In this document: piece after piece, positions 6,828 through 53,400 of the stretch | Position numbering within the stretch: position 1 is the first letter of the stretch | How the letters are laid out: the number at the start of each line of letters is the position of its first letter | Source of the DNA: Sipunculus nudus | Taxonomy: Eukaryota; Annelida; Sipuncula; Golfingiida; Sipunculidae | NCBI GenBank assembly: GCA_026874595.1 | Contig: CM049317.1 | Span: forward strand, 54,417,118-54,481,117 | Length of the DNA: 64,000 nt | Reading direction: 5' to 3' | Program-made: the position numbers and the translations under genes | The notes under the pieces: generated by a model | The model's input: only the letters and a program-made list of their open reading frames with translations | Told to the model about the DNA's origin: nothing | Database searches by the model: none

Positions 6828-7028
6828 TGATCCTCAGATAATAGGCCTGCTCGGTAAAGTGGGGATACCCGAGGATGACACGGTTTCACTGCGTGACAGG
6901 GGGCTATGGATCGCTGTGTTGCCATTATTTTTATACATGATCTCCTTTGCCGTTGTCTCAGTTCACGCTATAATTGCGGGGACAGGGCTCTCCATCCTGG
7001 GAAGATTATTTGGTTTCATGTTTAGCCG
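6828..7028 (+). CDS. PGAP1: PGAP1-like exon (first visible)
   Basis: The acceptor is a pyrimidine-rich tract ending TTCCAG and the donor is GTAAGT at 7029. The first base completes a split codon. The exon encodes an acidic stretch (PEDD) and then a transmembrane helix starting RGLWIAVLPLF. At least one upstream exon must exist. Confidence 0.75.
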
Positions 7029-25807: not shown

Positions 25808-25930
25808 ATGGACGGGAAGGTAATAAAACGAACCCAAGATACTCTTGGGAAAATTATAAAGAAGCCACCATTGACAGACAAATTATTAGGAAAACCACCG
25901 TTCAGATTTCTACATGATATCATGACGTCG
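25808..25930 (+). CDS. TRAF3IP1: TRAF3IP1 exon 1
   Basis: Codes residues 1-41, starting [15 protein letters not shown] and ending HDIMTS. The donor GTAAGT at 25931 leaves phase 0. This is the first half of the N-terminal domain. Confidence 0.94.
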
Positions 25931-26135
25931 GTAAGTAGTTTTTACAAATGCTGTACATACTTATTAAATACCTAATCTGTTAAATATTATAAGCCTTAAA
26001 TCGTCTCAATATTACGCTTGGATCAAACGTCAAAATCTTCTGACGTTCTGTCAGAGAGACTTTGACAGATCACTGAGAGACTGACACTGGGGCTTGCACC
26101 TGGCTGATTATAACTTGATATATGTATTATTATTA

Positions 26136-26171
<36 letters not shown>

Positions 26172-29100
26172 TTTGTGTGTGTGTGTAATATTCATTAAAA
26201 ATAGGGTAAGGTAAGTCAGAAAGCAGAAGAGTGTGGACAGGGTCCGCCTAAACACCCAAAGCACCGGTGTTTTGGGTACGTGTGACGAAACACCACGAAA
26301 CACCCTTTTAAATTCGAATTTGAAGCAAAACACTTGTATCATTTAATAAATCATCATCTGTTGGATATGTTAATACAGAATTTGTGCCACTTTTCTGTAA
26401 AATTAAAGAAAGCAATAGTGTTTTGTACAATTGACAAGTGCGCTGCTTAATTGCGACTTGCGCCACTAGGGGGCAGGGTCATAGCTGGCATATACGGCTG
26501 TCGTGGGCGCCGGTGAACCGACCACGACACGAAACACTCGTTTTTATCTTGATGACATGAATTTATGAAACAATATTGCAGAGATATATTCATCAGATGA
26601 TTATCTATCGATTGGTGTTACATTTTTGGTTCAGGTTCGAAGTGAAGTGGGTGTTTCATGGTGTTTCGTCACAGATACCCAAAACACCGGTGTTTTGGGT
26701 GTTTAGGGGGACAGTGTGGACAAGGTAAAGCCAAGAGAACAAATGGATTCTTAGGGCTTCAAGATGTATGTGTATATAAAAAATATATATATATATATAC
26801 AGCATTACAGGGTTATAGATGCGCTGGTTGGGGTTAGCCGGGACAGGCTTCTGCAGGCCAGCACAAAGCTTACATTTTCAACCCACCGACTAGCCTAACA
26901 CGTACGGACTCCATCAATTCATCTGTGATGGAGTCCGACTGTCTGGCTGGGAGATTTCACCCAGTGGTACTTGTAAGGACCTGTGACATGAAATATCAGT
27001 GCTTGTTGTGCAATGGAGAAGCAATCTTTAATTCTTTTATAGAAATAAACATAATATATATCAAATTATATCAATATATATCACCTTTATGTGTGCTCGG
27101 TAGATGTGTTTTATCCTTTGAACTCACAGAGTTCAGTTGATGCCATCCTTCTATGCGGAAGTTGTATATATACCCGTCGGAGATGATGAAATATCTGATT
27201 TCATTCAGAATAAGTCCCCATACTTTCTTACATACTGATCATTCAGCAAAAGTTTTTGTCCCAACAGAGTCTAAGCATATGTATTAATGATGATATGTGG
27301 GGGTGGTTTGGTTTCCTTGAGCTACACAAGGCATATACATGTCTGAGGGTTTGCATGGATCCATGCAAACTTGCACAAACTCTCCCTGCCAGCAGGGTTG
27401 GGGCCAGGTACTTGCAAAAGTACCTAGGTACTGGTACAGGTACTTGCAAAATGGTCAGGTACAGGTACAGCATTTTTGTGGAGTACCTAGGTACAGGTAC
27501 AGGTACTTAATAAAGTACCTAGGTACAGGTACAGATACAGTTTAAAGACGTTTGAACTAATGATAGTTGCATAAATCTCTTGTAGATATGCGATTATAAA
27601 TTGTAATAGAATGGCTGAATATATCATTAAAAAATTATTAATTTTAGCTTTTTTTGTCATCATAAAAAAAATGAGCATCGCAAATGTAAAGGATTGCCTT
27701 TAGTAAATGTGATAAGTGAATGAAGCTGATAAAGTTTACAAAGTTAGTAATACAGAAATATAAAACTTTCGTTCCTATACTAAAATATGATGTCAAAATT
27801 TACAATCAAGCTTTGAGTTTCAGAGTAATGTTTTAAAGTCAAAATCTCTGGAAGCACCACACACTCTTTAAAATAAAGAGGCTTGACAGCTTGAATGAAA
27901 GGAAAATCTTATAATCAGTTTTTAGCTCAGCTGACTTTCAGTCATGCTGGGTTTTAGCGATGGGTCTTTGTCCGGCGTCCTTCCGTCTGTCCGTCCGGCC
28001 GTTAGCTGGGCACAAATCGTAACCATAGGGGCTAGGGCCATGAACCCTATGCAGTCTTAGAGGTTCTAAAAAGATCTCCTTGCAAACCTGAAATTAGGTC
28101 ACTGCGACCTATATTCTCGAAGTTATGGGGTGTGTTTGCACCCCCCAGAAATAATTCTTTGAGCCAAAATTTTCATCCCAAACCTTCCATCTTTCACATA
28201 TAGCTCACCTACTAAGTGGGAGAAGAATCCTATAGATGTTGAGGTCACAAGGTCAAAGGTCAGGGTCACAGGATCCACTTCTTTGAAAAGGTTGTGGACA
28301 CATTTCAAGCTAGACCTTTCATTCCAAACCTTTCAGCACTGATATTGCTTCTCTGCCAACAGGGGAAAAGACCTGTTGATTTTGAGGTCAAAGGTCAAGT
28401 TCACGGCACCCTCTTCTTGCGTGGAGTCATTTTCAGCAAACTTTTCAATCTATACTTTCCATCTGTCATATATGGCTTACCTACCAATAGGAGAAGAAAC
28501 CTATTGATGTTGAGTTCAAAAGGTCAAAGGTCAAGGTCACAATATTGTTCTAAATGCTTGTGAACATATTTCAAGTGAAACTGTTCAACCCAAACCTTCA
28601 GTCTTTCACATATGCCACATCTATGCATCACTCAATGTGATTCAAACTTCATATTTATGGGTCTTTTTGCATGAAGAAATAACTAATTGATTTTGAGGTC
28701 AGCTGGTCAGGAGGTTAAAGGTTGCAGGTCTAAGTTATTCACTCATTGGTTGCCAAGTAATTACACCCGGCCAGATGTTATTGGTTAGTAGTTACCCATC
28801 ATTTAGAAAGAATCCAGTTCATATGTGGGCAAAAGGCCAAGGTCAAAGGTCAGGTCAACTTATTTTGTAGACCATCTCTATTTTTCTTGTATATATAAGC
28901 TTGCACTCCAGCTGGTACATCTCACCGTGTGGCTGTAATTGTGAGTGACACTGGTGACATATGACTCCCTTTTGTATCAGCTCATGGAGTGATAAGGATA
29001 TATTATTAGTGCATAACAAAAACACTGTTGCCGGAATGCTTTGGCCAGGCATTAAGACTATGAGAGTTAAGTGTTAAGTTTAGCTACTGATTTATAAAAT

Positions 29101-32100
29101 GATGGGAACATTTTGCAGTTTATATCATGGAATCATAGCAATAAACTTAGTTTTCTAGATATCTGAATATTATTATACAAATCATCAGATATACCAGCAA
29201 GTGTTTGTTCTGATAATATGTGGGTCTGTACCTGGATTTAGGATGGCTTTATTTGATTAAAAGACTCTTAGTGATGCTTTCTGCATTTCTTTTCTTTTAG
29301 GTTTTGCAGTTTACCTACCCTGCTGACCCCATTGAATAGCAAGCTGATAATTAAAACAAATTGGACTTGCACTTTTTACATTTGCATGTTCATAAATCTG
29401 ATATGAGAGCCCTCCAACCTGATCATGCCTTTTGAATTGTTTTAGACATTCATAACTGTTACATTCTTTGAAGCAATTGCTACAAGTTTAGTGTCTTATT
29501 GGAGCATGTGTGACTTGTCAGAAAACCATTATGTCTGCCAGGTAGCCATTTTAGAAATCCTTTTGCCAGGACAGTTTCTGTGATTTTTTTATGATGTTTG
29601 GTCCCTTTTAGAGGATGTTTGTTGTTCAATTTCCGACCTGTCAGAAAACCAATATGGCCACCAGGACGCCATCTTTAAATTCCTTTAGAACATATTATCT
29701 CAAGAACTATTAAAGTGAATGCAGTGGGATGTATATTAATGTAATCTTGCATTGGGTCAAAGATTTCTTAATAAATATGACCATCATTTATGAAAGCTCA
29801 GTACAGTTGGCTTGTATTGAATAAAAATTAATATGGAAGCACCCGTTTCACAATAATTCTTGCATGGATTTCCTTGATCTTTTGCTATATTTTGATCTTA
29901 TATGTGGCCTGTGTGGTATTCCTTTTGAGACTGACAGGTATCGAGCAAGCTGTGGGATTAGTTCCTGATAGCTCAACAACCATACATTTTGCCCCAGACC
30001 ATCATTCACTATGTTTTAACCAGACATATATGATAAGAATTTATGGCAATGTAGAAAGTTTAAACAAAATTGGCATATAGGTTCTGCAACAATTTTACTA
30101 GAAGTTGTGAATTGCAGCCCATGATGTCGCAGGTCATGCTTGGCAGCTGAGCGTCATGACCCATGGGTCACTTGTTATAGATTAACTTCATGACAGGAAC
30201 AATAATACATACATAATTGAAAGTAACAATAAACATGTTCATTGCAGTATAAGTCATACTGAGGAATGTTTTGAAAATTAAGAGCATCTGCATTTGATGC
30301 TTGAGCTGGGACTTTTTTATCTGTGAATGGGAATGTTCTGCTTTTTTTTGGCATATGTTGAGAGTTCAGTTACATAATATGTACCTTCTTCACTTCTTCG
30401 TTTATCCTTACTAATGTTCTTTGTATACTAGACAACAGGTATGTACATGGGGCGTGTGAGCAACACTGTCCATATCCTTTTCTCTCTACCCTTTATATCT
30501 GATAATGCTTCAATGAACTTCCTGTGTAGATGCTGGAGGTAGCCAGGCCAGCATGCTACCAGCCATAGCCCAGTCTACTTTAAAGGCTGCTTGGAGAAAA
30601 GCTTAGTAATTACCCCTGCCTGGATAAGGTAACAGACCTGATAAGGGTGACAACTCAGTACACTTACTTGACCCAACCTGATGTCCATTTCCAGTTTCAT
30701 TACCTGTAATCCTCATAACTGTAAATTGTGCACCAAGGTACAAGTACCATTACCTGGCCCCAACCCTGTTCTGTGTCTACATTGCATGGACATGATGGCA
30801 GCCCTGTTCTCATCCTTTGTGAGGATACTGATACTTGTGCTAATAATTTCACAATGAACTTCCTGTTTAGAGGCTGGAGGTTGACCAGCTTGCTAGCCCC
30901 ACTAGCTACAAAGGCAGCAGGGACAAATGCTTTGTAATTACCCCTGCTTGAGATAGGTAACTGTCCTGACAGGGGTGACAGCTTTTGTTCAAGCAATTGA
31001 CCCAAGCCTGGTGTCCATTTTCAGTATCACATTTGTACCTGAAGTACCTTATACCAGGTACAGGTACTTTAGTTCCAGGTACAGGTACAAGGTACTTCCT
31101 ACTCATGAAAGTCAGGTACAGGTACTCTAAATTGTGTACCTAGGTACAGGTACAAGTACCTGACCCCAACCCTGCCTGCCAGAGACTGTAGCATTTGACA
31201 TTTGTTCACTATATGTCAGCGCTGCAGACTGTAGCAAACCACCAGCCGACACTGAAGATCGTCAAAGCCCAGCTACCAGCAATTAAACTTTGGTTATTTA
31301 TTATCCCAAACTGCATTAACTGTGTACCTTATAAGCATGTTCACAAAAATTAATCTATTGAGAGCAAAATAATCATAAAAAAAATATAAAATTTATAACA
31401 CTTAGAACAACACAAAGATAAAGCTTACATATTCCGAAACCTTATGCCAGTGTCTGTAAATTTAGCTGGCACTCAAATTTGTCTAGCTGTAACCCTATAT
31501 ATATTGTTATGGAACCTAATATAAACAGATCACGTATGCCTGATGAACACAAATTTTGTAATGGAGAAAAAAAATCAGATTCTGTAACATTAGGCAGCGG
31601 GAAATGTCTAGGGAATGAATAAAGAAGTCAGTTGTTTTTTGTTAACAAGTAACTATATAATTTATTCTTAAAACAACCCTAACAATACAATACACTAAAT
31701 CAATACAATTATACAGTAACACAGCTTTATTGCAACAAGTCAATACAATCACACAGTTCTATGGTACAGTACCTTGATACCAAGATAAGTCCTTTGAATG
31801 TAAACTCTCACAGAATGGCAGTCCAGTGGAAAGTTCTTGCAACAACACAGAAAGTAAACTGAAGTCCTAATGTATGAAATCCAGGAAAGTTCTTGAAAAT
31901 CTATAATTGCCGTATTTGTCTGATAAGGTTTTAGAATCTGACACACGCTTCTGCCTCCGCTGGAATCTGCTGTGCTGTCTGCCCCCTGGTTCTAAACAAC
32001 AGCCCCTTTATATACCTTCACACCCAAAACCAGGAATTTTCCACTTCTCGAACAGTCTAAAAGGACCTTACTCCTCAGTAAACACGCGCTACAGGAATTC

Positions 32101-32409
32101 TCTGGAAAGACATCGCTGTGTATCTACACATACCAGGCTCATCACATGACCCACAACCAGGCGTGAAATCTAAAGGCCCACATGACAACGAGAGTTCAGC
32201 CAGTACAGACCAAACACAAAATGGAACAACAACACAAGTTATGCCCGTGTCATACAATAAAAGAGCACCTGTAACAATATATATACATATAAATATCCTA
32301 AAAGAATTTTTGTACCCAACTTTCACCCTTTCTATCCTAGTTTTCTTGTATTTACACCAAAGACTGGCACAATATATATACTGGATATAGCAGTACATTT
32401 TAAGCAATA

Positions 32410-32447
<38 letters not shown>

Positions 32448-35400
32448 ATATATAAATATATATATATTGTTGAGGGGTACGAATAAAAGCGGATCAAACT
32501 GTCTAACTTGTGCAGCTTGCTTTTCTAGCGAGGCACTTGGAATGGCGAACATGACATCACTGACATGGGTTCGACTCTAGGATCTGTCCAATATTTTCCC
32601 ATGAGCAAAATGTTTCCGTAATGTATGGGGGATCATCCAAAATAAAACCCAACTTTTAATAACTTCGTGTTTTGTCAATTGCCCCAGTTTTATCAAACTC
32701 CATATCATTAGGCCCTGCCATATGACCAATTGTCAAAACAGACAGTTCAGTGAGAGATTCAGTATTAATGTAAGCCACCGGGCCACCGGCATGCAACAAA
32801 TCCTTTGCATAAATGTGTGCCTACTCTTACTAAAAAATAGTAGATCATATTATGCTCCCACATTGTACTTGCTTCATTGACCTATTTTGACATCAAGGCT
32901 GTTTTATTATTTGGCCACACATGTTCCTACACAGATACAGAGGCCCCAGCATGTGTGATATCAAAGGTCTGCAAGGTTCATATCAACACCTGTGGGCGAT
33001 ATGGCTGGTACATTTATTTGGGCTCATGTCAGCCAGGCATTTAGTCTACTCTGTGGCACAACCATGTAGAATGAAATTTTTTTAAATATATTTTTTGGTG
33101 GAGGTAACTGCCTCCATTTTTAATGCAAACTTAACTAGGTATATGTACATCTGCAGAATTCAATTTTTGTTTCGGACAACGTGACAGGGCAGTATCACAC
33201 ACTTCCTCTCATTTTAAATCCTGTTGTTAACAAGGTCGGATGACCACTGCACCGTGGGCCCTGGGTGCATAATCGTCCACATTGCTAGGTCATACCACCG
33301 AGGAACCACCGAAAGATGCACTCGTTTGTGAGTGAAATACGGCTTTGGGGCACAACCTTCCCATTAAGCCTGCAGAGCGCTCACCCTTGGTGGGGGCCGA
33401 CCGTGAAAATCTCACCACCTTGACTGAGATTTGAACTCACAATCTCCCGGCTTTGAGTCCTGTGCTCTACCCCTGAGCCAAAGAAGCTTGTTGTACAATA
33501 AAATTGACAAACTCCATGATTCGTGTTATGTCACTTTGCTCAATCAAATGAAATTGACAAACATCACATGGCTTGTGAATTCACTATGTTGTTTTTCAAT
33601 GCCTGAAGGTGCCGGGGCATGAACTGTTTTAGTTTTACTTGAGTACTTTGTGAAAATAGAGTGACTGTACACAGTTTTTTTGTCATGATAATATGTGTGG
33701 CTGTCTAATTAAAATATTATGAACAGCTTGTTGGGTATTGCCTTAGTATTTAGCTTTGGCAGATGTATCAGCTGATATGCCACCCTCAGGCCAATAAATA
33801 GGCAATGTACATATAGAATGATCCAGTTAATAACATTTAAATTATCATAGCCCTATTTCCATTTACATCCACAACAGGAACACTCCAGTGTTGAGTGCCA
33901 TAGAGCTTTTTTGACATCTTTTGCTTGTTATCAGCCAGGGTTGGCAAGTTTCCGTCATTGGCAACTAAAAATGGGGTTGGTTTTTAGATTTATACTCGAC
34001 TTGTTATATCTCTGCTACTCTGCAAATCTTGGAGCTCTATGATTTCATCAGCGCTGCAAAACTAAATAGCGCAGGATATCACTATCCATGTAGCTTTGGG
34101 TTTCCAAGATACCATACTATATTGTTTTTGTGTATTTTTCATTATGTGTAATATGGTAAACATCTGGGAGTTCACCTTTCCATCAGATTGGTATAAAATA
34201 TAACTTGTCTTTCCATGTATGTATTTCTCTGTCTGAGACGGGCGGAATTGCGTAATTACGATCCCTGTTTTATTGTGTACCCACATGTCTCTAGTTATCA
34301 AACAGCATGTAGGGCTCTCTCACAGCGGACATCAACGAAGCATTGGGAAGGAATGGGAGCTTGTTGGCTCTCTTTTCTATTACAGTTCCGATAACTTACT
34401 TCACAACTGTGAACACAGTGCAGAGTAACTTTTCTTAAGCATTGAATTTGGTAAATTATTCACTCAAAAAACTTGTCTATATGTTGGTATTTCCCAGATA
34501 GTTTCCCTAGTATTCGCAAATTTTAAACACATGGACTTGATGAAGTGACTTAAGTTGTTTTCTGAGGTGGCTGCAGGTGCATTTGTAAATCTAAACATTC
34601 TAACTGACTTGTCATGGTGAGGTTGAAAAGACAGTTCACATAAAGAAATACAGGGTATTTGTCCATGGTGTCTCATTTCAGTTTTACACACAACAACTGT
34701 TGTACTTTCTTGTGCTTGTATTATATCTATGTGCCATGAATCTGTTTGTAACTTTCAGGTAACAAAAACTCTTGCTTCCTGAAACTTGTGAAAGGTTAGT
34801 TTTTGCTGATGACATGAGTAAGAAGTTAGAGGAGATGCCCAATATCTTATAATTTGTCAACATCAATGTTGAACTATATTTTTTCGTGTGTGAAATTTAT
34901 ATTGTTTAACCACAATATTTTACATATTGTTTCAGGTTATAAAGACAACAGGATTAATGAAGGGCCTATTCACAGATTCAGAAATGAACTCTGACAATGT
35001 AAAAGACAAAGAGAGCAAAATCAACTTCTTGCAAAAGGCAATAGACTTAACAGGTAAGTCTTATTCCTGTTTTGTCACAAAATTATGAGTATGCTTCCAC
35101 TTAATTTCTGTACTTAGCATTTACTGTATAATCTAGTTAATGGTCTAGTTCAGTGTTTTCTATTCACAGAGGCTTTTTCAGCAGGCACATACTTATATAC
35201 ACCAGACATTATATTTATTTTGTATGCTAGAGGATGATTTTATGTATACAAAAATGAAGGCTTTATGTGGAATAATATATTTATTTTATAAGGAACAAAG
35301 CATCAAACTTTTTATAAAAAGTCTTAATGCATTGTCTACAAAGTGACATGAACAACATCATATATAATGTTTTGTCCAAAAATTAAATATTCAGCAATTA

Positions 35401-38400
35401 AGAGTAGACATATTGACATACCCACTGGCCACTGAACTACACAGTTACATTTAATTCCATACATACAGTCCTTATTTTTCAGTGTGTATATATATATATA
35501 GGTCTAGATCTTCTTTTTAATATAGAGTAATTATAATATTTACAATATGGGTTTCTGTGTGTATGCAAAATGGCAGCTGGTTTTGAGAAACTATGGACCT
35601 ATCATCAGTATCGGGTTTGATAATTGCAAGGGGATGCCGCCTGAAAGTATTCCCGAGGAGAGAATCCATCTGCAGGAAAATGTATTGGCAAAGTTTAGAG
35701 TGAAATAACCCTTTTTTAGGACAACATCCAAATCCTCAAATTATAGTAAGATTTCCAAACCATAGATAAAATGTATTGTTCACCATGCCATTGCCTGTCT
35801 ATGTAGGAATCAGATGCCAATCAGCTTGTTTCTAAGTATTGTCCTTTAGCCTTACGTGCCTTTAAATTGCGAACCTGAGAGACACTTGTTAAATGTAATT
35901 TTTTGACTGGAAGAATGCTGACATTGATGACTGTGACCTTTCATACTGCGACCTATCTTGTTAACTTCTCTTAGGAATGGCTGTTGGTAGACAGTTATCA
36001 GTTCGTCCTGCCAAGATCGTTGCGGGTCATGAACCTGAGAAAACTAACGAGTTTCTACAAGCACTAGCAGAAGCCATCAACAAAAAGGTAGGTACAGAAT
36101 AAAGCACGCCTCACAACTGCCGGTGCTTGTATTGTATCAAGTTACATATCTTATAATTTGTCAACATTAATGTTGAACTATATTATCTTAGCCTCTGTTT
36201 TTCTTCATTGCACCTGTGAAATCAGATAAAAATAGTCTAAAACTTTGTCTCTTGCACCAGATTATAGAGTTGCATTCATCCTTTATCTGAAAGCTTGTCA
36301 GTGCCATCACTAATCATATCAGATTGGTCAGAGAGATCAGGAATCATATCAGTTTTTGTCAGAGCTGTCAGTAATCATATTTAAAATTTGCTGTCATTCT
36401 GCTTTTGAGTAAAATTGAAATCTTGTCTGATGACCAAGTCACTATCATGACCATCCCACTAAAACAACCACTTTTTTTGTCCCAGAATAATGTAAGTCAT
36501 TATAAAACCCTTCCACTAACACAACAGTTAGTTGGTCCCGCAAGTTGTCGTGTTAGTGAGATTTAATACAGGAATACTTTGATACTAGCCTGAAGCCAAT
36601 GTGTACAAATTCATTCTTGTTTTAACTTTTCTTAATTCAGGCTGGACATGTTGAGTTATTTTGTCATCTGTACATGACACTAAATATTTTGCACTTAAAT
36701 TGTTTATCTGAAAATCTGTATGAATTAATATATGACAGGTTGACAATGATGAGATGGTCAGTAAAGTCCTTGGCACAGGTGGCAAATCTTCCAGTTCTAA
36801 AAGAGATGCAAGCAGTGACCGACGCAAGAAGAGAGACAAAGAGGTTGGCCCCTTCTGTTTGATTTTATTACAGACCATTAGGACACTTAAGTCAATAGAT
36901 TGATGAAAATTAATGTAGCTTATATTATTTTCTAGGATATCTAAGATTTTTAGATGACTTTGAAAAGCTATCAAATTTAGTTATGATGAAATGAAATCAG
37001 ATTGAAAAGTGAATAGCCAGGAAAAATTTCATGTGATTTGAGTTCTGTGAATTTTAAGTCCCAAAAAATGTTCATATTTAAGGCTGGAATGTTAACATAT
37101 CACATTCTTTTATCTAATTGGCTATTTCTCATGGTAGAGCTCATGTTTTAAACTAAATAGCAATGTAAAAAAAGAGAGAATTTCTGCAGTGAATCCCACT
37201 GATACATTTTAATTTATAAGGAACGAAAGTACAAAGATTGTATAAATCTTTAGAGCATAGAGTACATTTATATTAGTGATCACTTAAGATAAATTTACTG
37301 CAAAATTTTAAGCAGGATAAAGAGGAGAGAGGGGAACGCAGTGAGAAGAAACATAGAAGCAAAGACAGAGACAGAGAAGACAGGAAAGACAGAGAAGATA
37401 AGAGAGACAGAGAAAAAAGCAGAGACCGAGAACGCAGTCGAGACAAAGATCGAGACAAGGAGAGAAGCAAGGACAGAGAGGATAAAGAGAACGAGAGAGA
37501 AGACAGAAAAGATAGAGATGAGAGGAGAGAAGAGAAAGAAAAGGAAAGAAGGAGGGTGAGTTTAAAAATAAGAGGTTGATGGTGCTGGATGCATACTTGA
37601 TCCCCTTTTTTTTGTCGAGGGTTTTAAATTTGTGATATTCGTGAATGGGCAATTATCATGAAAATAAAACCTTCTGGGATAAGAGGTCCCATTGTTGAAG
37701 GCAAAGTTGAAAAGTAAAAGCTTGACATTATGAATAAAAATAGATTGTGCATTTTGCTCATGCTATGTTCAAAGATTGATATAATTTTAAATAATATCAG
37801 ATATTTCCAGTTGTCTGCCATTAACAATATTTGTTGTTAATAAGATTTTATTGTGCCCAGAATATTTGTCTTACTTGAGACATTTAATTTCCCATAATAA
37901 TGCTTTTACTCTGTGTGTAGGTCTGTTATATTGTGAGATGCCAAAAATGGAACTGAAAAAGAGAAATATGAAGCTAACCACTCCATGCCACATGCCATTG
38001 TGTTGGTGTGTCCTTGTTAAGCAGGCTTGCAACTCAATTTTCTGATATTTTCTTTGCTTCTCCAAAGTATCATTGAAAATTGCTCTGTGTTAGAGCAGGA
38101 TAACTCGTTTATGTTGTGGTAATTATGGTGAAGTATCTCATCGGAAGTAGTAGGCATTGGTATAAAGTCAGCATAGTGTAGTCACAGACACAGGAGACAG
38201 TGGAATCATGTTATATTTGGGTTTATCGTACAACACATACTGCAATTTCCTGTGATTATTTATTTCAGGAAACAAGACTGATTAATTTACACTTACGCAA
38301 TCATATCATATTCTTTGCTTTTTGGTCAAGTAGGTCCTATGAACAGGAGCAAAGAAGATAGAGCAAAAATATCACTTATCTCAGTCAGTCTGAAACTGTA

Positions 38401-41400
38401 TGGGGCCTCCTATATAGTCCCTATTTATACCTTAGGATTATGTAACAACACAGTTACAAGCTCTTGTACATTCAGTAATTTGCATTTAACTTGTATAATG
38501 TTTTGTTCTATCTAGAGACGAGAAAAAGAACGAGAACGAGAAGCTGAAAAACAACAGGAAGAAGCATCAGGGAAGCAGGAAGCTGTGATGAACGGGGAGG
38601 CTGAACCAGATAAAGAGGTACTGTAATTAAATGTCCTCCACATGAACCAGATAAAGAGGTACTGTAATTAAATGTCCTCCACATGAACCAGATAAAGAGG
38701 TACTGTAACTAAATGTCCTCCACATGAACCAGATAAAGAGGTACGGTAACTAAATGTACTCCATGTGAACCAGATAAAGAGTAAATGTAATTAAATGTCT
38801 TCAGTGTGACATAATGCACCAGATAAAGAGGTACATTAATTAAATGTCTTCCACATGAACCAGATAAATAGGTACTGTAACTAAATGTCCTCCACGTGAA
38901 CTAGATAAAGAGGTACTGTAATTAAATGTCCTCAACGTGAACCTGCCATAAAGAGTTACTGTAATTAAATGTCCTACAAGTGAACCAGATAAAGAGGTAC
39001 TGTTATTTAATGTTTTCCATGTAAACCAAATAAAGAGGTACTGTACCTGAATCTCCTCCATGTGAGATAAAGAGGTACGGTAACTAAATGTCTTACAGTG
39101 TGATATAATGCACCAGATAAAGAGGTACTGTAATTAAATGTGAACCAGATACAGAGGTTCTGTTGTTAAATGTCTTCAGTGTGATACAATGCACCAGATA
39201 AAGGGGTACTGTAATTAAATGTCCTCCATGTGATTATTGATATAATGAACCAGATAAAGGGGTACTGTTATTAAAGGTCCTTGACATTAATTAATGAAAT
39301 AGAGAAAGAGGCACTATATCCATCTTAACAATACAAACAATTTAGCATACTCAACAATGCTCTGTCTTTTAAGGTACCATAATACAGTTACAGCGGTTTA
39401 TATTTAATGCTGGGTGGTCTTTAAATATGCATTGGTTACTGTGGAACACACTTCCGTCAGATACAGGTTTAGCCATGCCCCATTCCTAATACTACACACC
39501 ATAAGCTTTTCAGATAGCTTGATCCCTGCCAGTTGCAAATTGGTTGCAACGGGAAGAACATTTTACCCCTGTGGCCACTGTACTGTTATAATGGATAATT
39601 ATCTATGTCTTTTTTTATCTGATAGCCTGCTCCAACAGCACAATATCAGAAAGTCATGCCCACTAGATGTAAACCCAGCAATTGCAAGTCTTACCTGGCC
39701 ACATAATGCAAAATTACCTGTCTTTTTGTTCCATATACATATAAAAAGTATACAAGCTATCTCTTATATTCCTAGGATTATGAATAGCCAATCAGAGCTA
39801 TCTAAACCATTAACTACAATGAGATGTGCTCACAGCTAATGAAACCTTCCCATATACTAGCAGGACCTTGTGATATATATTGAATATGTAATTTATCTTG
39901 TAGGCTGAAGCACCACATAAAATCCCAAGACCATCATCGGCAAAAGGATCCAGGCGGAGACACAAAGAAGGTATTCTTATTTTGAACCTACGATTCTTTG
40001 TTTGGTTTGGGTTTGATTGCAGTGATGGCAGTGTTTGGTTTGGCTATGCATCGTTTTAGATTTTATTGTCTCCTGATTCTGCCAAAATAGCCGTGATATC
40101 TCATGCTGTCTTCAGTATCTCAGGATATCTTAGATATCAGATTTTACTGAACTATCTTCAAAGATCCTGCATTGCTGCTGCTTAGCGTTCAGACATCAGA
40201 GAATCCTGATATTCAGCCATGCTTTTATCATTTCTCATATTTGTACATAAATATATACTTTGAAATGTTGTGTATTTTGTCTTGTTGCAGCTAGTATTAG
40301 AGAGAACTTCAATTTGGTTATATAATATGAAAGTTAATTTTGGAACTTTAATGTACCAGGTGAAGGATAATGTGTGAAGTTATAGAATTAGATATTCGGT
40401 CTGCCAGGCTGTAGTAGAAATCTGCCAAAAAAACTACTGCCGATATTAAAATTTCCCTTATTTAGAAAGCTGCTGCAAAAATAAATATTATCAGGCATGA
40501 TTGAAACCGTCAAATCATTAGAGACTGTCACTTTTGGGACTGTTCCCAACATATATTATTTGTTTACATCCTCATGAGCCTGCATTATGCACTGAAACCC
40601 CCAGCCAAGGTCACCACCACAAAAATGCACTTTCTAGCGAATTATGAATGGGTACTATTCATGATTATTTTGTAAGGGTCCTAAAAGGTAAAACCTCAGA
40701 TAGGTGGCTTAACTGAATAGCTCTACATTGTTAAGAGAAAATGGTTGCCACTTGCTTGAAAATCTTTTTTTATGGTTTATTGTATTTGATAATTTAATGT
40801 TTTTTATCTTTGATTAAAACGCACAGAAAACATGATAATTTGTGAGTAATTGTTTTAGCTATATTCCATTTAGTATGTAGAAATTAGGCAGCGGCACTAT
40901 TAGTTCAAATAGAACACAAGTTGGCATGAAATTTTGGTAGATCAATTACTGAGTATGCAATTTGATGCACTAAAATAGTAAACCTGTATCATTTGTCTGT
41001 GGTAAACCTCCAGTGCAACATGATGTCCAGAAATTCATCATGTCCCCAGTTTAATTATGTATATGATATCATAACTACCAGGAAATCACCATAACCATGA
41101 CATCACATCCTGTTTAAAGCTAGCATTGTCTTGTATTTGGTTTGGACATCTCATTCTCAGAATTCATTTTGACATTGGCAGGGCTGCTTGCGCTGCCATC
41201 TAGTAATGAATATATAAACTATTAAAGCATTATTTAAAGCAAACTTTAAATAAAATAAAAATATTTGGCTCCTGTTACAATACTTCTTCACTTATATGTC
41301 AGACCGAGAGATAAAAAAAAAATTGTATATAATGATGAGAAAACTCAGTCATCACCAAATCAAGAATCACCGCATCAGTCATTCAGGGGCTTTTTCACAG

Positions 41401-44400
41401 TACACATGTCAACACTATTACTTCTTGGATTTGAAAGAAATCTCTATTTTTTCCCTCCATGATTTTTTACCATTTTCATAATTTTAATCTTGAAATATTT
41501 TGTATTTTTTATGATAATATTTTCGAGGGTGAGCCCTTCAGTGCATTTCAGATCGATGTTCTTTTGGTGAATTTACTCGTATTCCTTATTTAGCCAAATG
41601 AAAGATGACACAGATTTGTTAAATAAGATTCCTTTTAGCTCACACCAGATATATCTGTGATAAGGAAGTTGATGTTGGCACTAACACGCATGTTCACTTT
41701 TCCTCACCCTCCCGCAGGCAAACCAGATTCCAGTGATGAAGGTAGGTGGCACCACATGTCTCATTAAATATTCTTCACATACTCCCTGCATGCCACTTAC
41801 CGCACCATCTTCAACTCTCCATACATTTCATGTAGTCTCTGTAAATAACTTGCACATGAAATATGTCACAGTATTACAAAGAAGGTGCAGAAATGATCAA
41901 TTTTTCTTACATGTCAGTGACTAAAACAATAGTTATATTTTGTTCTAACATGGGTACCTCGTGGTTTTCACTATTTTAAGCTAAGCTGACTGTCAATCTC
42001 TTCATATACCCAACTGGCTGACTGTGCATATCTTTACAAGGTAAAAATCAAAATTGTTATAGGTACAGACCTGAAATTTGGCATGCAGTTCTGGCAAAAC
42101 CAATGTACAGACCTGAACTAGGTCACTATGACCTTGTTTCTTCGGGCAATGGAATGACTACCTAATAAATCTTCAAGTTTTCTGTGTATCCATCATGTTT
42201 TTGTCCTTCCAGTTTAGTATATAGAAAAATATGTTTATGATCCATGCACATATGGACATTAAGACAGTGTCATAAACTTTATCAGGCAACTGTAATTTAA
42301 CTTTTATCAGGGAACTGTAATACATTGGTTGCTCAATAATACAATGAGTTTTAAGAGGATGATGAGGGTATCAATCTCAAAACCAGGGGTAAATCCGAGT
42401 TAGAACAAATTATAACTGATCATCTGTATATATAATGTATGTAGATTGCTTGCTTTTTCTTCAAGGTCTTTGATGCATCTCTTTGTCAGGTGTTTTCTAT
42501 TGGGTCTGCTATGTTATCTTATATCAAGCCTCAAATTTGTTTATGTTAAAAGTAAAATGAATGCGCCATAAACAATTAAATACCAATGATTACCACCTGC
42601 ACCACCAACTAAATTCTGAACAATCTTTGAATTTGAAATCAGTTTGATAAATATAAGAAAATTTGACCATTTCAAAGAAATTCAATTATTACAATGAAAA
42701 GCACTTTCAATTTTCTCCTCTGCTTGATCTGGAGTTGAATCATTTAAATTTAGGCAATTCATTAATATAAGTCCCAAAGAAGGACTCTGTCACAAGCCAA
42801 ATTTTGTCAAAAGATCATTTGACCAGAATTTTTTTAATTGAATTTTTTTTTAACTTGACAACAAATTTGAGGCTTATTTTGTGATTAGAACCATAGAAGC
42901 TTACGAAGTATCAGAAATTCGAGTAAGATTTAGTTTTGTTTCAGGACATGCATCATTCATGAGGGGTTTGTGGTGTAATATGTGTTAGATATTTAGTTGA
43001 TAAAACCAATGACGTTCATCATCCATAAAAAAGACTAATAATACAGAGCCTTCAAATATGTGTTCATGTCAGTTACACAAGTTATCAGACAGCAAAACTG
43101 GCATTTAACCAACTTCTGTGGTCAGAGAGTAGAGTACAGGCCTTAAAGCTTTGAGCCGGATGTTTATGCCTGGTTAATTGCCATTCAAGTCTTGTTTAAG
43201 GAAAATTCAATAAGTTAAGTAACACCCAGACTTCAGGATCGTCATAACCTGGTACCTATAGCTATTGCATTTTAGTATCACTGCTTCTTGGAATACTGGG
43301 GGTACATACACAAAAAGAAACACAGACTGATCTTTTGACTTTGTGCAACAATTGCCTTGATCTGTCTCCTGAACGACATCACACCCACCATGCCACATCT
43401 CCCAGATGGAGGCCCCTCAAAGTATTAGTAAGCTGGTTATCCTAGTGGCTAGTAAGGCCAGTGTTTACCTTGTTTTCCATGGCAGGGCACTGTTGAAATG
43501 TTTACAAATTACCAAAAAATTGAGAGGTGATACCAGGGCTGTGTGAAAATAAGTTATTATATCTGTCACCTGGAGGCCAGGCCCGATCAGCCATGGTTAA
43601 AACAGGTCTTTTTTACACCCAATACTTTAAATTATCTTTTTTTACTAATTCCTCAAAATTATTTATCTGTAATGTTTGTTATAATATGGTTACCGAGAAT
43701 GAGTTATACAGCTTAGGAGAGCAGTATGTGAGCTGGTCAGCATATATTTATCTGGTAATTTTATGACAAAAACTAGTTGAATAAACTAATTAAAATAATT
43801 CATTATTATGAAGCAAAAGTGTTAAGTTTGTACCAAGTTTGTTCTAATGATATAAAGATGCTGAGGAGCTCTTTTAACTGTTGCATATTTACATTAATAT
43901 ATACCAATATTGTTAACCAGTGTCCTGTACTGTTTATTTAACAAATTACACTTTTAAAATTGTTATAGTTCTGAAAATAGGTGAAGAATTTATGCTTCAA
44001 TTAATGGTGGTATTTTTCACTCTCCAATATTATGATTAACATATTTAATGTTCAGATATTAAATACTAGGCGGTGGATATAATCAGTTAATTAAAGATTT
44101 ACCAAAAACATACATTTGTTGTGTAGAACCTCATGATATTGACTTCAGTTGTTATTTAAAGCTAATTATAAAATTTTAAGCTGCAACTAAAAAAATGAGG
44201 CATTATTTTTAAATAACATAATGAAATAAATATTGTATTTTACCAAATGAAAAATTTATTTATTGATTTAAGTTTTGCAGACATATGAGGCTAGAGAGGA
44301 GATATGATACAGTGCCGATGAAAAAAGTCTGACAGCAACATTTGTAATTAACCCCTTCCTTTAAATGAGACCTCTGTAGATTCATATCTGATCATTGTTG

Positions 44401-47400
44401 TGTGGTTTATGTTACAGATGAAGAAGATGAAAGGATGAGAGCAACCTCTGGCAAAAGGACGGAGAGCAAAGTCAACGGAACAGTTACAGAGAACGATATA
44501 CCACCGCAAGTTGCTGCAGCGTGAGTGTTCTGAAGAAAAAAGTAACAAAATAAAAATTTATTACTGTTCTTACAAGTCATCATTTGAAACTTGGCTAATT
44601 TTGTTCATATTTTTATACACCTGTCAGTTATGGACTTATTCACGTACCTGTTGTGTTAAACATACACAAAATAAAGCATTTTCTCCTTTTTATATTATAG
44701 TATCTTCCAGTATTACATTCCAAAACTGTTTGCTTACTCCTGTACAAAAGTGGCAAAAAGCTAGCAAGGGGCCAGGATACAAACATAGCATACCTGATAG
44801 TGATAGCACGCAACTTCACAAATCAAATTTTGCAAGCTTCCAACTGTTCCTTCTGTATTTCTTCTTCCATGTTTCCTCAACTTGTTTGGGAGTTATAACA
44901 TGTGCAAGATCACACCCCTGCACACTAGAACATACTCATGGAGCTCTGTATTTAAAGGAAAATTTGGCTTTTACCACCAAATATTATAGCATTCATGAAT
45001 TGGGTACCGTAAAGTTCTTAATATAATACCCTGCCTCATTAGAATACAAACCCCATTTATTTGCCCAGAATGTTTATGCACCGATGCACTCATACCGCTT
45101 CCACTAAAGGCTCAAATAGAATATGCTCCCAAATTAACCTCATTGCCACCACAACCTTGTACCATAGGATTCATCCAAAAATCTTTGGAAACTGTACTAA
45201 AAACACAGGTGTAATGCAAATTGGGGATGTACCTGTGTATTTTCATTTATTGCATTTATATGATCTAGCATTATGAGTGAAACTTGTTTTTATTTTTACA
45301 GAGATCATCATGAAAACATTATATGTGAGAGTATAAAATATTTAATTTAGTTTTATTGTTATGTTGACAAATATTTAACACCTTTTTCTCATAAATAATG
45401 CAAGCCATTATTCTATGATAATTGTGTAGGCTCGACAGATACAACTTCACATCCCTCGAATCAGTCCTTCCTTCCACAAAATTTCTTCAATGAAATTCTT
45501 CAAGAACTTTCATTTTAGTGGGATTGAGACACACATAGACAGTGATGACAGACTGTAGACATTGCCTATCTTTTATGTACTCTATAAAGGGCTTCACTGA
45601 ATATAATACTTATATGTTATAGATGGAAAACAGCAAGGCCCCCTAGTGCCAGACCAGCAGCACCGAGACCAAAGCAAAAAGACACAGCTCCAGAGGAACC
45701 TGTTGTTGTGTAAGTATCAGTAAAAAAAAAGTATCAGTAAAACTAGAATCAACTAAGAACTGTAAACTCAGGGAAAGGGCACAGAACTCAAAGCTTGACC
45801 GAGATGGTGAGATTTTTCACTTTCAACCCCAAACCAAGGAGAGCGCTCTGCTGGCTTAATGGGGAGGTTGTGCCCAATGGCTGTGCTTCAATTACAAATG
45901 AGTCCACCTTTCGGTGGTTCATTGGCAATGGGGATGAATTACACACCCAGGGCCTGCAGGTACAGTAGTCACCAGTCCTGGTTAGCAGCATGCTATAAAA
46001 TTAGAAGAAGCTTGTGATACTGCCTTGTCACTTAGTCTTAAACCGGAATGGAATTAAGGGGATGTACATACACTTAGTTAAGCTAGCATTAAAAATGGAG
46101 GCAGCCATAGGGTGCTCATTGAAATTTGGCAATTATTTTCTGAAACTCAAAAATTATCACACAGGCTGACCTTAAAACTGATGAGGGACCAAAGCCCAAT
46201 TATGAGATGTAAACTTGGTAACAAAAAACAATATGTATATTTTGCAACCATCTGGTTCTTCTATCCTTGTGGCCAAGTTACATGGCATCTGTCATTGGTT
46301 GCAGACAACTGCATTATTTAGAATATTGATGACCAATTATTAATTTTCAAATGCAGTTGTTTAAGAATGTGACCAGTGACCTTGACTTTCATGAATGGAT
46401 ATGAGGTGTAAAAAATACTGTTTAATCAGATATTGATTTAAATGCATTAATATTTTGCATGATATGATTTAAATTTAATTATAGTTAATTAGGCCATTAC
46501 CCCATTCCTTCATTGCAGCATACTGTCTTGATTTAATCTGCCAGATTATGAAAATATTGTCAAATTTATTGGGTACCTTACTGTGGAACAGACTGTACCA
46601 AAAAGAAATTTAATAAATCATTAAAGCAGAATTCCACACACACACACAAACATTTGTTTAACCCTTTACTGTTCAGAGGACCACAGAGATTTACTTATCA
46701 TTTGACTAGATTAAAACATATTTATTTTCAGTCCTAAAACTTTCCATGAATGAAAAGCAAAGGCTCCCTTCTTAACTATTTTCAGTTTTGTAAAATTGGA
46801 ACAAAATTTGAGCAAAATAATATTTGTATGGACTGTACTTGTAAAGAAAGTCAGAATTTGTCTGGAATTGGAAATAAATTTGAACAATAAAGGATTAAAC
46901 TTGCTCCCTATTCAGATTAGACCCCATTTGTATATAACATTTAAACCTATCTATTTCATCTAATGGTACAATTATCACTTAAATATCTCTTTTAGTTTTC
47001 AGTATCTTGGTAATTCCTAGCTACAGAACACTTAGATTCAGACATAAATTCCATGAATTTGCTTGTTACCATTGATTTCATGTTGACATCTTGGTCTTAT
47101 TTTTTAAGTTGTACTGTACTTGTTTAATCATCTGATGAAGTTTGAGAATCAAAGAGATAACAATCTTTTAGTTTTACATTTACTTGTGACTACAGGAGCG
47201 GGTCTGGGAATGTGCCAAATCTGATCGTAGACAAAGACCAGGACTCGGATGACGACGATATGTTTGTGGCTAAGGAAGAGGACCAGCCAATAGCACAGGA
47301 GATGCCACAGGTCTGTATAGCTGGTCATCGTGCCAGACAAAGTAGTCTGTCATGCAAGCAAGAACTGATTATTTTATACAGGATACGTAATACTTTAAAA

Positions 47401-50400
47401 TTTTACCTTTCCTATGGAAAAAGCATAAATCGAGTTTAGCCTTTCCCACAGGAAATTTTGCCTCACTGCTTGTAGACACATTGAATCATCATATCAAACT
47501 TTTAATCGGTCACTTCCATTTTAACATATCTGTAGACAGTCAACCTGTGTAGTTATGGTAGAGAATCCTAATGCCAACACCTGGCAGTCTTTTTGTTATA
47601 CACGCTGTGATTTAATATAGGCTGGTGTAACATAACAAAATTGCCAGTAATGTATTTCCTTAGAGAGTAAGAATGAGGCTGGGGTTTATTCATATAATTG
47701 GCTCTGTTATGACTCTGCTTCTCTGCAAATCACAGAAACCTATGATTTCATCAGCACTGCAAAGCCATAATAGAATGGTGTACCAGGTAATTGGGGGTTT
47801 ACAAGTTACCATAATGTGAGAGAATATTTTGTTTTTTTGCATTTTGCCTTGACTTTGAATATTCCCATATTTGGTGAAAAATATTGTTTCTCAAGTTGAT
47901 AGATGCAAGAAACCATGGTGACTTGCCAAATTTCAGTATATGCTTCTGAAGATTGGGGCCTGTTCTTGAGGGGGGGGGATTAATTGTGGGGGGAAGAAAT
48001 GTCTAGTACTACGGTATATTATATATTATTACATATTACAGATGAGGCAAGCACCTGACCAGGATGAGGAGGGGAACCACGGTGGTCTCGTAAAGAAAAT
48101 CTTAGAGACTAAGAAAGAGTTAGAGAAAGGGAGCCAGCAGCCTGGAGCCAAGAAGACAGAGATAGTAAGCAGTTATCATAAGTAACATAAAGCCGATACT
48201 GTGGTTGACTTTTCGTTTGCAAGGGTTACAAATTTGAGATATTCATGAAAGGGGAAATATTGCGAAAAAAAACTTCAAACTGAAAAAGAGGTCCCATCGT
48301 TGAAGGCTAAATTGAATAGTAAAAGGTTTACAAAAGCAAAATAAAAAAAAAAACAGGTTGGGTTCTCTGGCACTGAGGGTTGGCGATTTTTTTTTTTTAC
48401 CTTTTTATTTGTGTGTACAGGGCTAGTTATGTTTTAGCATAAACAGTGGAAACATGCATGCACACGTTCATGCATGCATTTTAGTAAAAATTGCACATTA
48501 TTGCGAACAAAAAGCATCCAAGAGGCTTGAGCGCAAATCAATTTATTTCTTTTGAAAATTGAAATAAATTTTTTTTATGCCGGGGGGGGGGAATCAATTG
48601 ACGTGCTTGAGAACACAACCTTTTTTTTGCCTTATGAATAACCATAGGTCATGAATGTTTAAAGATTTATATTTTAAATGATATCAGATCTTTCAAAGAA
48701 TCTGCCACTACTGAATAAAATTTTTTTAATCAGATTTTGTGCACATAATATTTGATATAATGAATTCACATTATTATGGTTATACTCAATGTGTTTTTTT
48801 TGTAATGTCAGATCGCGAAAATTGGACCCTCACAAAACACTGACCAAATAAAAATTTTGAAATTTTTACCCTGCAAATAATAAGTCAACCACAGTATATA
48901 GGTGTTCATACATAGGTGAAATTGTGCTTTCAATTTTGTTCTTGCTTGGTTTGGAAGTCAAACTCATTTTTTAGCTCAGCTGACTATAAGTCATCTGAGC
49001 TATAGTCGTGGTCCATTGTCCGTCGTCCGTCCGTCTGTCTGTCTGTCCGGATGTCCGTCCGTAAGACTGGCACGTTTTGACACCGTTGGACCTACGAATC
49101 TGAAATTCGGCATACAGTTAGATGTCCCCAAAATCTACTACCATGCCGAAAATTGGGTCAATAGGACTTCGTTCCTTTGAGATATTAAGGAAAAACCTCA
49201 ATTTTTTATTAGAAATCTATTTTCACACTTCAGGACTGCCTAATATCAAAACCACTCATCTGGTTTTCTTCATACTTACCAGAAAATATTCCTCTATATA
49301 GTTCCTATGTACATGCCAGATATTAAGTCAGTATTATATAATTTAAAAAAGTTATTGGCCCAAACATAATGGACTTAGTAAAAAAAATCAGGAAGATATT
49401 TGGTCACTTAAGACCAAAAGTGTTAAAGGTAGGGACTTTTTTCCAGTAATACAACTTTAATTAATCAAAATTTAATTGTATACCAAAAATTAGATCAAAA
49501 TCTGTTAAATTTTTTTAAATATTGGTAAAAATATAAAATTGGTACCTTAAATTTTGCCCAACTTTGGCCGTGGCACATTTTTTTCCTGTAAGTACTGTGG
49601 ATTTAATTTTCACAGCATGTATACATAAGGATTTAATCTGTTAAAATCTGAAAAATGAAAATAAAAGCTGCAAAACTAGGCTAGTTATTGAATTTTTTGG
49701 AGGCTCTTGTTGTATTCCCTTACATTGTCAAGCAGTCCACTTTGATGACTGTAGGTCATTCAGTGCACATCTCTATGCTCCCCAGGCTGTTGGCATAATT
49801 TTAGATGTCCCCAAAATCTCCTACCATACCGAAAATTGGGTCATTAGGACTTTGTTCCTTCGAGATATTAAGGAGAAAAAACTCTGTTTTCCATTAAAAA
49901 AAGCCATTGTTACACTTCAAGGCTGCCTAATATCAAAACCACTGATCTGTTTTTGATTGTATTTAGTATTCACATTCTTTCATACATTTTCTATGAACAT
50001 ACCAAAAATTAGGTCAGTATTGGGTATTATTTTGAAGTTATGGGCCAAAACATAATGCAATTTTGAAAAAAAAATCAGGAAATATATTTACTCACCTAAC
50101 ATGAGAATTGCTGAACCTAGAGACTTTTTTTCAGGAATATAACTTTATTTAATCAAGATTCAATTGTTTACCCAAAATTAGATCTGAATTTTGCAAATTT
50201 TTCAAGTTATTAGCATAAATAAAAAATCAATACCTTAAATTTTGTCCAACTTTGGCACTGTTGATTTAATTTTCACAGCATATATACATAAGGATTTAAT
50301 CTTTTAAAATCTGAAATTTCAAAGAAATTGATTGGAAAGAATAGCTTTTATTCATGTTTTCATACAGCATGTCAAGTGTTGTTTACATCTAGCCCACCTA

Positions 50401-53400
50401 GTAGTACAGCCTTCACTTGCATTATGTAACCCACCCCAGGCAGCTTGCCTTAGGTCAGCCTGGCCACTACCAGCAGGCTTCCCCTCTGCCCTGCACTCCC
50501 CCCCCCCCCCCAGATGGTGCATAAACTAGATGAATGTTATTATTTTCTGTATTTGATTCATTCATATTCTAGGCTATGCTACATTTTAGATTTTGTATTG
50601 TACCACCAGGGTTACAATGATTAAAGTGTACATTTAATTGTGTCCAGAAAAGTGATGTATTGCTATGAAAGTGTGGATGTTCATCAGATAAATAATTCCT
50701 TACTTCAGAAGAGTAAAAACTTCACCAGGTGTGAAATTGACTATTAATTCCAGTAATAAATTAAAACTGGGATAGTAATAAGCACAATGATATTGTTTGT
50801 CCCTCATTTAACCAACAGTGTGTATACTTTATTTGAAAATATGTTTTTATTATATAAAATTTACTGAATCTTTTATTTTATTTTGGTGAATAAAATTAAG
50901 CATGTACTGAAAACTCCAATGTGCAAAACTTTTTAATAGTGGTTCAAGGAATATTCTTGTAGATGCCATGTTGTGGCATTATTTTCTTTTAAATTCAGTT
51001 TAAACATTTATGATTTAAAAATAATAAAATATATGTGTATGCATAATATGACCCAATATGAGCTACACTCTGGATATATGATGATTGCAACTTTTGCAAC
51101 AATTCTAATATTTTAACTTATAGTTTCAGATTTTTACTCTGTATATATATTGATTGCAACATTTTGCAACAATTCTAATATTTTAACTTATATTTTCAGG
51201 TTTTTTTATTAAAAATTTATAAAACCTGTAAATAAAAAAATGATTCAGATAAAAACTTCTTAATGGAAAAAGTGGATATGCTTAAAAAAAATAGGATTAT
51301 ATATAAACTTAAATGCATTATTCCCTTGAAAGTGAAATTAAGGTATTAGTCCATTCTGTCCACTTGCCTGTCCATCTGTAAATTTTCATATGCATCACAG
51401 TATCTCAAAATTTTACTGTTTTTCTTTATGACAGTCTTGTCAGAGTATTAGTTTGCAATCATATATTTAGAACTTTACTATAACCAAGTAGAAGGGCCCC
51501 TTTCCTCTTAGCTTTTCATATTCTTATGTAAATGAAAAACGTTACAATAGAATATTTCTACATCCACCTTCGTGCTGCCCTCACTTTTCCCTTCTCCGAA
51601 CCCCATCCCAAAGTCAGCCTCAGTAAGCAAGAACAAGATAAATCAGATATATTCATACTTTAATATTTTGTATAACTATTCGTCCATAGGTACCTATGTA
51701 CATGCCAGAAATTATGTCAATATTGTGTAATATGTAGACATAGTGGGCATTACAATAATGTACCTTGTCAAGACTAAAGAGATATTGTGTCATACAGTCA
51801 CAAATTCATAAATCACTTCATCAGCATAGTTAATCATAACATCATATCTGTCAAATTGAAAGCTTGCAGACTACCATACACTTTAGATCCTTCAACAAAT
51901 AGCCTTATCATCATTCTATTACTGCTTATTACTGCTGTCATTGCATTCATATTTGCTCAAATATATCACAGTTTTCAACACCCTCCTAAATAAATAAAAA
52001 ATAAACCACTATATTTGACTCTATTAATCCATCAGTCAGGTAATTTCATTTATCATTTACTCACATTTTACATTATATACCTTTATAATAGCCCAACATG
52101 TCCATGATATTCATAAGCTTTATCGACTCGATATAGTATCACAGTGGAGAAACATTTATAGTCCAATCATGATCAGCTGAGCGCCGTGACCCATGGGTCC
52201 CTTGTTTTAAATGTAGAATATATATGACTTTTATGTAAAGAGATATACATTTTAAAGTAAAAGTCTATTGCAAGTTTCAAACAAAATTTGTAACACTGAT
52301 ATTTCTGCATATACAACTGAGTACAATTTTTTAAAATCATATTTCATATTTTCATTTTACACAGATACAAAATTCCTTGATATTCACATTTTTATGAATT
52401 ATGTGCCAAGATGAAAATCACAGTATTTTTCGTCAGGTTTTGATATGAAAATCTGAATTACTTTGCAATGTTAAAACCAACAATAGAGAGCTCCATTTCT
52501 GTCGTTACATGAGGTTCAGAAAATATGAATTTTATTCTTTATTCTCCTTATCAGAAATAACTAAATTGAATTTTAACATTTCATCTAATACAGGGTTCCC
52601 ACTCATTAATTTAGTACACGTTTATGGACCTTTTAAGGACTTTCATGAACCATGTCCATTTGATTTCATGAACATGCAGCTATTCAGTCTGACTTCATAA
52701 TACAAATAGCTTTATTCAGTATTCTTCAGCATTAAAATTGAAAATTACAACAGCACAAATGCAGAATTTATGGACTTTAATTCATGTCTGGTTATTTTTA
52801 CCAAAAATTTAAGAATATTAATGTACTTCAGTTCTGCAGTTAAGAATTCTTGGCCTTTCATAGTTTCTACAGACATGTATGACCCCTGAACCCTTAATGA
52901 ATACCATGGTTAGCGTAATATTTGCGAGTTTTAAATTTTGCAATAGCTTCATTTTTAACGTCTTGTGGGGTTTCATTTTATGGACTACCAGAATGGTAAA
53001 GGTGCATTATACGGGTATGAACTTCAGGGGGTTAAAACAACAATTGAACCCATGTTTTTATGCAGAAAAATGTGGGTTCAATGCCTAATAGACAGTCAGC
53101 TAGTCAACCCATATATTTATTTTTTTACAAATTTTTACATTTCTACCTGTGAACCCACATTTATTTTGTGCAAAGTGAACCTACTTTTGGTTGTTTTTGT
53201 CAATGACATTCTGTAACAGTCCAGAAAAACAAGTCAAGAAGTGAGACTCATTTTTTTTACTGCATATTTTTAACTTTTAAAATTCTAATATATATTATTA
53301 ATATCAGTATTTAGTTGAAGCATATTAGGCATTGAACCCACATTTTTTGTTAGAAAATGTGGATTCACCTCATGTTCCAGCTGTGTTTGTTTATGATGAA

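Follow-up and report, generated by a model that had tools for sequence, protein, structure and literature searches.

A minisatellite spanning the exon 6 splice donor of a TRAF3IP1 gene in Sipunculus nudus

The TRAF3IP1 gene and the end of exon 6

A TRAF3IP1/IFT54 gene was located by tblastn at 25.8–54.7 kb on the forward strand of the window (the whole 64,000-nucleotide stretch of Sipunculus nudus DNA that was analysed), with a human TRAF3IP1 sequence as the query; residues 1–133 of this query match PDB entry 2eqo_A exactly. The gene model comprises 1680 coding nucleotides and 559 amino acids, with phases that are consistent across 13 exons and a single stop at the end, and both MIP-T3 and MIP-T3_C were found in its product by Pfam (PF10243, 6.4e-45; PF17749, 3.3e-47). 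The domain layout is that of TRAF3IP1/IFT54, with a CH-like domain at the N-terminus and MIP-T3 at the C-terminus. The three exons of the CH-like domain were 64%, 69%, and 46% identical to human in the tblastn search. A pattern for relatives of the CH-like domain matched 5 stretches in viral contig collections and 46 in prokaryote ones, none of which was confirmed.

The sequence-only reading had named the gene TRAF3IP1, numbered the exon under study as 6, and placed its end, all of which the 13-exon model supports when coding exons are counted (Table 1). Exons 4, 5, and 6 each start and end in phase 0. From the start of exon 6 to the end of the in-frame TAA that follows it, GT occurs only at 38585, 38618, and 38623, with scores of 0.52, 3.04, and 2.64, respectively, by a donor position weight matrix (PWM) whose human base frequencies may not fit the host animal, and with U1 duplex energies of −1.5, −6.6, and −1.4. 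Splicing from 38618 keeps the frame into exon 7, and splicing from 38623 breaks it. Against an exon end at 38618 stands the GT at 38585, a very poor donor that would also end the exon in phase 0 and keep the frame.

The edges of neighbouring exons resemble one another. Exon 4 ends in GACAAAGAG (36835–36843), followed by GT, and exon 5 starts with GATAAAGAG (37316–37324), so that nearly the same nine bases, encoding DKE, stand there as at the end of exon 6 (GATAAAGAG, 38609–38617). This likeness probably reflects charged low-complexity code rich in K, E, and D.

Table 1. Features of TRAF3IP1 and its two donor-spanning arrays (positions in the window)
Feature	Position	Strand	Basis or remark
TRAF3IP1/IFT54 gene	25808..54677	+	tblastn; 13-coding-exon model, 559 aa; Pfam MIP-T3 and MIP-T3_C
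Exon 6, 102 nt, phase 0 at both ends	38516..38617	+	13-exon model
Donor-spanning minisatellite, 17 units, commonest length 41 bases, last unit degenerate	38602..39319	+	TRF, pattern search, unit segmentation
Unit 1: exon 6 end, predicted authentic donor, and 25 intron bases	38602..38642	+	identical to unit 2; 0 mismatches to consensus
Exon 6 donor GAG/GTACTG, weak (PWM 3.04, T at +5)	38618..38623	+	PWM, U1 duplex energy
In-frame TAA, third codon past exon 6; ends every transcript from a later in-register donor	38624..38626	+	gene model
Unit 4 pseudo-donor GAG/GTACGG, above unit 1 (PWM 7.11, duplex −7.7)	38741..38746	+	PWM, U1 duplex energy
Unit 12 pseudo-donor GAG/GTACGG, above unit 1 (PWM 7.11, duplex −7.7)	39075..39080	+	PWM, U1 duplex energy
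Exon 7, 67 nt, phase 0 at start	39904..39970	+	13-exon model
Exon 12, donor GAG/GTGAGA at 53945	53718..53944	+	13-exon model
Second donor-spanning array, 5 copies	53916..54195 (outer limits approximate)	+	intron copy search, segmentation, shuffles

Units, donors, and stops of the exon 6 array

A roughly 41-base unit repeated about 17-fold over the exon 6 donor had been described from the letters of the sequence, and TRF, a pattern search, and unit segmentation confirmed it. TRF reported the first 11.8 copies (38602–39092) with a 41-base unit and a score of 570, and placed the rest of the array in separate rows. When GATAAAGAGGTACTG was searched for with up to three mismatches, 18 matches were found across the window, of which the array accounts for 17 and the other is an isolated match on the minus strand at 19365; a mean of 1.74 was expected by chance, and 18 was reached in none of 100 shuffles. 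The array begins 15–16 bases inside exon 6 and covers 702 of the 1286 bases (55%) of intron 6, with unit 1 holding the last 15 coding bases of the exon (38603–38617) followed by GTACTG. Of units 1–16, eight are 41 bases long, and the others have 49, 43, 37, 50, 32, 49, 56, and 49 bases.

Units 1 and 2 are identical, unit 3 differs from them at one position, and every unit from the third on differs from the first two, many of them greatly. The 17 units yield a 32-base consensus that unit 1 matches in full and to which units 1–17 show 0, 0, 1, 2, 3, 3, 2, 1, 9, 2, 6, 8, 1, 4, 2, 3, and 11 mismatches, respectively. An assembly artefact is extremely unlikely: a copy may have been gained or lost at the identical units 1 and 2, but collapse or stutter does not produce differences such as those seen from unit 3 on, and the separate array at exon 12 described below has diverged too (66–89% identity to its reference copy). 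Distance to the consensus rises with unit position (rho 0.51, p 0.04), a weak trend that falls to rho 0.41 (p 0.13) without unit 17 and to rho 0.43 (p 0.16) without units 9, 11, 12, and 17. Because units 1–8 are more alike than units 9–16 (identity 0.91 versus 0.76, permutation p 0.012), there is moderate support for an array that grew most recently at its exon-side end.

It is also conceivable, but quite unlikely, that the array began as ordinary satellite DNA within the intron and only afterwards spread across the exon edge, where it took the place of an earlier exon end and donor. The units do reach just 15–16 bases into exon 6, and tandem repeats abound in the window (33 TRF rows). However, unit 1 matches the consensus exactly, its exonic part carries on the charged coding sequence in frame, the sole earlier GT in exon 6 is the very poor one at 38585, and, among the 20 BLAST matches listed, none was a convincing second copy of the array at another place in the window (best E 0.47).

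The sequence-only reading held most copies to be potential donors, and as to presence this stands: GT lies in register in 14 of the 17 units including unit 1, and so in 13 of the 16 later units, with TA in unit 5, TT in unit 9, and GC in unit 17. Their strengths are unequal, however, and in this respect the description of the donors as near-identical is not supported. The PWM score is 3.04 in seven units (unit 1 among them), higher in three (7.11 in units 4 and 12, 4.50 in unit 6), and lower in four, GT being absent from the remaining three. U1 duplex energy ranks just units 4 and 12 above unit 1 (−7.7 versus −6.6; unit 6, −5.7), so that these two, which have G at +5 where unit 1 has T, are the stronger by both scores. 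Several out-of-register GTs in the array also score above unit 1 by PWM (e.g. 39062, 7.30; 38746, 6.17) but pair more poorly with U1. Among the plus-strand GTs in the window, about 15% of 3619 score at least as high as the exon 6 donor.

Such a run of weak U1-binding copies downstream could aid splicing by recruiting U1 snRNP and strengthening a weak first donor. For PAH exon 11, exon definition is reported to be open to promotion by U1 bound downstream of the authentic 5′ splice site (PMC5933811), and the exon 6 donor has the lowest PWM score of the 12 donors in TRAF3IP1. The RNA of 38560–39330 is also predicted to fold less stably than shuffled sequence (z +3.71, with all 20 shuffles equally or more stable), so there is no sign of structural masking and the copies should be accessible; no RNA family reached its gathering threshold in 36000–41000. 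On the other hand, conservation of the donor bases across the units (G in 15 of 17 and T in 15 of 17) does not exceed that of their neighbours, which gives no signal of selection across the 17 units, three of the 12 donors are weaker than that of exon 6 when ranked by U1 duplex energy, and the array at exon 12 lies over a strong donor (9.91) that should need no help. The PAH case resembles the present one in having U1-like sites downstream of a natural donor; it differs in that a single intronic element was tested there by mutation (PMC5933811), whereas the parallel here is one of sequence resemblance. Assistance through U1 recruitment therefore seems unlikely.

Use of a later donor had been expected to shift the frame in most cases or to run into the TAA. 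The stop is real, but it applies to all 16 later in-register positions (13 with GT) rather than to most of them: each reads ...EPDKEVL*, giving one common premature stop, from which the last junction is still 754 to 1406 bases away. Because every later in-register donor meets this same stop (GTA-CTG-TAA), unit length and frame are irrelevant to the outcome. Skipping of exon 6 keeps the frame, and the skipped reading has a terminal stop only.

The choice of donor, or the skipping of exon 6, could then act as a regulated switch that sets the level of IFT54 and is tuned by copy number. Later donors meet an immediate stop, exon 6 skipping is in frame, units 4 and 12 are stronger than unit 1 by both scores, and an intronic 38-bp VNTR is reported to alter TERT splicing and decay (PMC11830802). 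Donor positions that are not conserved above the neighbouring columns speak against such a switch, which is very improbable. Across the 16 later units, exonic columns are kept in 14.3 of 16 and intronic columns in about 14.1 of 16 (permutation p 0.35); exonic columns kept no better than intronic ones are consistent with drift.

A second array at exon 12 and a survey of splice sites

The array at exon 12 has 35-nucleotide cores at 53921, 53983, 54020, 54078, and 54139, with spacings of 62, 37, 58, and 61. Its donors score 9.91 by PWM at 53945, 2.35 (weak) at 54007, 10.33 at 54044, and 9.91 at 54102, and the GT is lost at 54163. A 19-base core occurs three times in the window against 0.01 expected, and in Markov-chain shuffles of each array-bearing intron the observed score was reached in 0 of 1000. 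The copies are more diverged than those at exon 6, and the array may accordingly be the older of the two, to judge from this divergence. No homology was found between the two arrays (score 22 versus a null mean of 21.9). From each of the three later GT donors at exon 12 the reading is ...KREQR*, an immediate stop again, and the distance from it to the last junction is 58, 95, and 153 bases; skipping of exon 12 would break the frame.

All 12 donors and 12 acceptors of TRAF3IP1 were surveyed for copies in the adjoining intron. The exon 6 donor scored 62 and the exon 12 donor 52, and the next donor (exon 9) and the best acceptor each scored 26, giving 2 of 12 donors with intronic copies and no convincing copy for any of the 12 acceptors. 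In a control of 200 random 45-mers per intron, a few of which came from the intron itself, the observed score was reached in 1.5% (exon 6) and 1.0% (exon 12). An equally good downstream copy was found at 2.5% of window positions and at 1.1% of 2751 positions inside the gene, these positions having been sampled every 10 bases, with those near the two arrays dropped, and not being independent of one another. From the 2.5% background, the probability of finding 2 of 12 donors by chance is 0.036, and that of 2 of 24 splice sites is 0.12. The preference of arrays for donors is only suggestive, and chance is not firmly excluded, because the window is repetitive and the sampled positions are not independent.

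The exon 9 donor (45710–45741) carries a small duplication in which 13 intron-side bases (AAGTATCAGTAAA) recur 17 bases downstream. The start of exon 7 (39904–39921, GCTGAAGCACCACATAAA) resembles the end of exon 6 with a score of 18, which was reached by 0.13% of 21061 25-mers from the window and by 1.5% of 1278 coding 25-mers; by this control the resemblance is weak. The idea of exon 7 starting with a further array copy was post hoc, and the start of exon 5 scores the same.

Origin of the arrays and comparison with known systems

The reading preferred here, with a probability of about 0.7, is that a segment covering the exon 6 terminus together with the donor was duplicated in tandem again and again, producing a silent minisatellite. 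Exon definition, together with a bias towards whichever usable donor lies furthest upstream, would lead the spliceosome to take unit 1, and units 2–17 would be removed with the intron, leaving the array silent in mature mRNA. A slip to a later unit would retain GTA-CTG-TAA and lead to nonsense-mediated decay or a truncated protein. Tandem duplications over the donor would be nearly neutral and would accumulate, because the first donor would win and slips would end in a stop. At exon 12 the same process may have run independently. The first-donor rule is assumed here, and against it stands the fact that unit 1 is beaten by other donors on both scores. Given the weakness of unit 1 and the more favourable +5 base of unit 4, some use of unit 4 at a low level and some in-frame skipping of exon 6 would be expected.

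The exon 6 array appears, from its sequence, to be of the same kind as the donor repeats in intron 7 of human F7. The F7 gene has a handful of repeat units, the first of which is said to span the exon boundary, with later copies that are reportedly functional pseudo-sites (Borensztajn, 2006); donor position versus strength has reportedly been studied there with engineered constructs. Human F7 intron 7 contains 37-bp repeats in variable number, the first copy of which holds the intron 7 donor and the later units of which are highly homologous, and only the most upstream 5′ splice site is used (PMC6627357). The exon 6 array shares tandem units of tens of bases (17 units, 41-base mode, against 37 bases in F7), a first unit that spans the exon end and the predicted authentic donor, as judged from the exon model and the stop right after the donor, and pseudo-donors in later units (GT in 13 of 16). 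It differs from F7 in gene and animal, in its 17 units, and in having a second array in the same gene. Unlike the normal F7 allele, the first donor here is without the +5 G that units 4 and 12 have, and in this it resembles the disease allele c.859+5G>A. Either other signals would enforce this weak first donor or there would be leakage into decayed or exon-6-skipped mRNA. The array had been put forward as a natural test of how the first of many donors is chosen; the kind of test is not a new one, human F7 intron 7 having such a layout already (PMC6627357). In a literature search of titles and abstract openings that took in few subscription papers, F7 was the sole donor-spanning array named, and nothing on TRAF3IP1 was found.

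Other systems are more distant. VNTR6-1 in TERT intron 6 is likewise an intronic minisatellite (38-bp unit) with a reported effect on splicing and decay, but it is separated from exon 7, which is downstream, by ~3.5 kb, and G-quadruplexes are its proposed mode of action (PMC11830802). G-quadruplex potential was not found in the exon 6 units, with no repeated GGG and one GGGG each in units 15 and 16. Intron gain through tandem duplication across a boundary is described in potato RdRp (PMC4974935), and human minisatellites are described that alter gene structure via cryptic splice sites (PMC2812944). As here, splice signals are copied or activated in these cases when a tandem duplication falls within or across exons; unlike here, where 0 of 12 acceptors are copied, a new intron can arise from the copies. 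Such intron gain would need an acceptor derived from the duplicate, and no convincing one was found for any of the 12 acceptors (best score 26).

A broader proposal, which is doubtful, is that donor-anchored minisatellites arise recurrently as a class and mark, as a footprint in the genome, the choice of the first donor, with duplications of 3′ splice sites purged by selection. If so, TRAF3IP1 (2 of 12 donors, 0 of 12 acceptors) would be an example, and at exon 6 the first donor would win despite stronger copies. Should such arrays turn out to be frequent at donors and scarce at acceptors in genomes at large, the asymmetry would be evolutionary evidence that donors are chosen directionally. 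The single gene offers two opposed natural arrays, a weak first donor followed by stronger ones at exon 6 and a strong first donor followed by equals at exon 12, which bear on whether donor position beats strength.

Two further regions of the window were noted. On the plus strand, ~6828–7028 and 8442–8571 are probable exons of a second, membrane-protein-like gene, for which Pfam gave no match to either frame and PDB none to the first (~6828–7028); their donors at 7029 and 8572 are without a downstream copy (scores 16 and 18). TRF also reported a 278-base tandem array of 4.1 copies at 13527–14668 that contains GGTGGCGCCACC, and the arrays at 4999–5302 and 11285–11565 hold similar-looking stretches of GCCACCTACA or CACCACCTACA; from this likeness, the three may belong to one satellite family.
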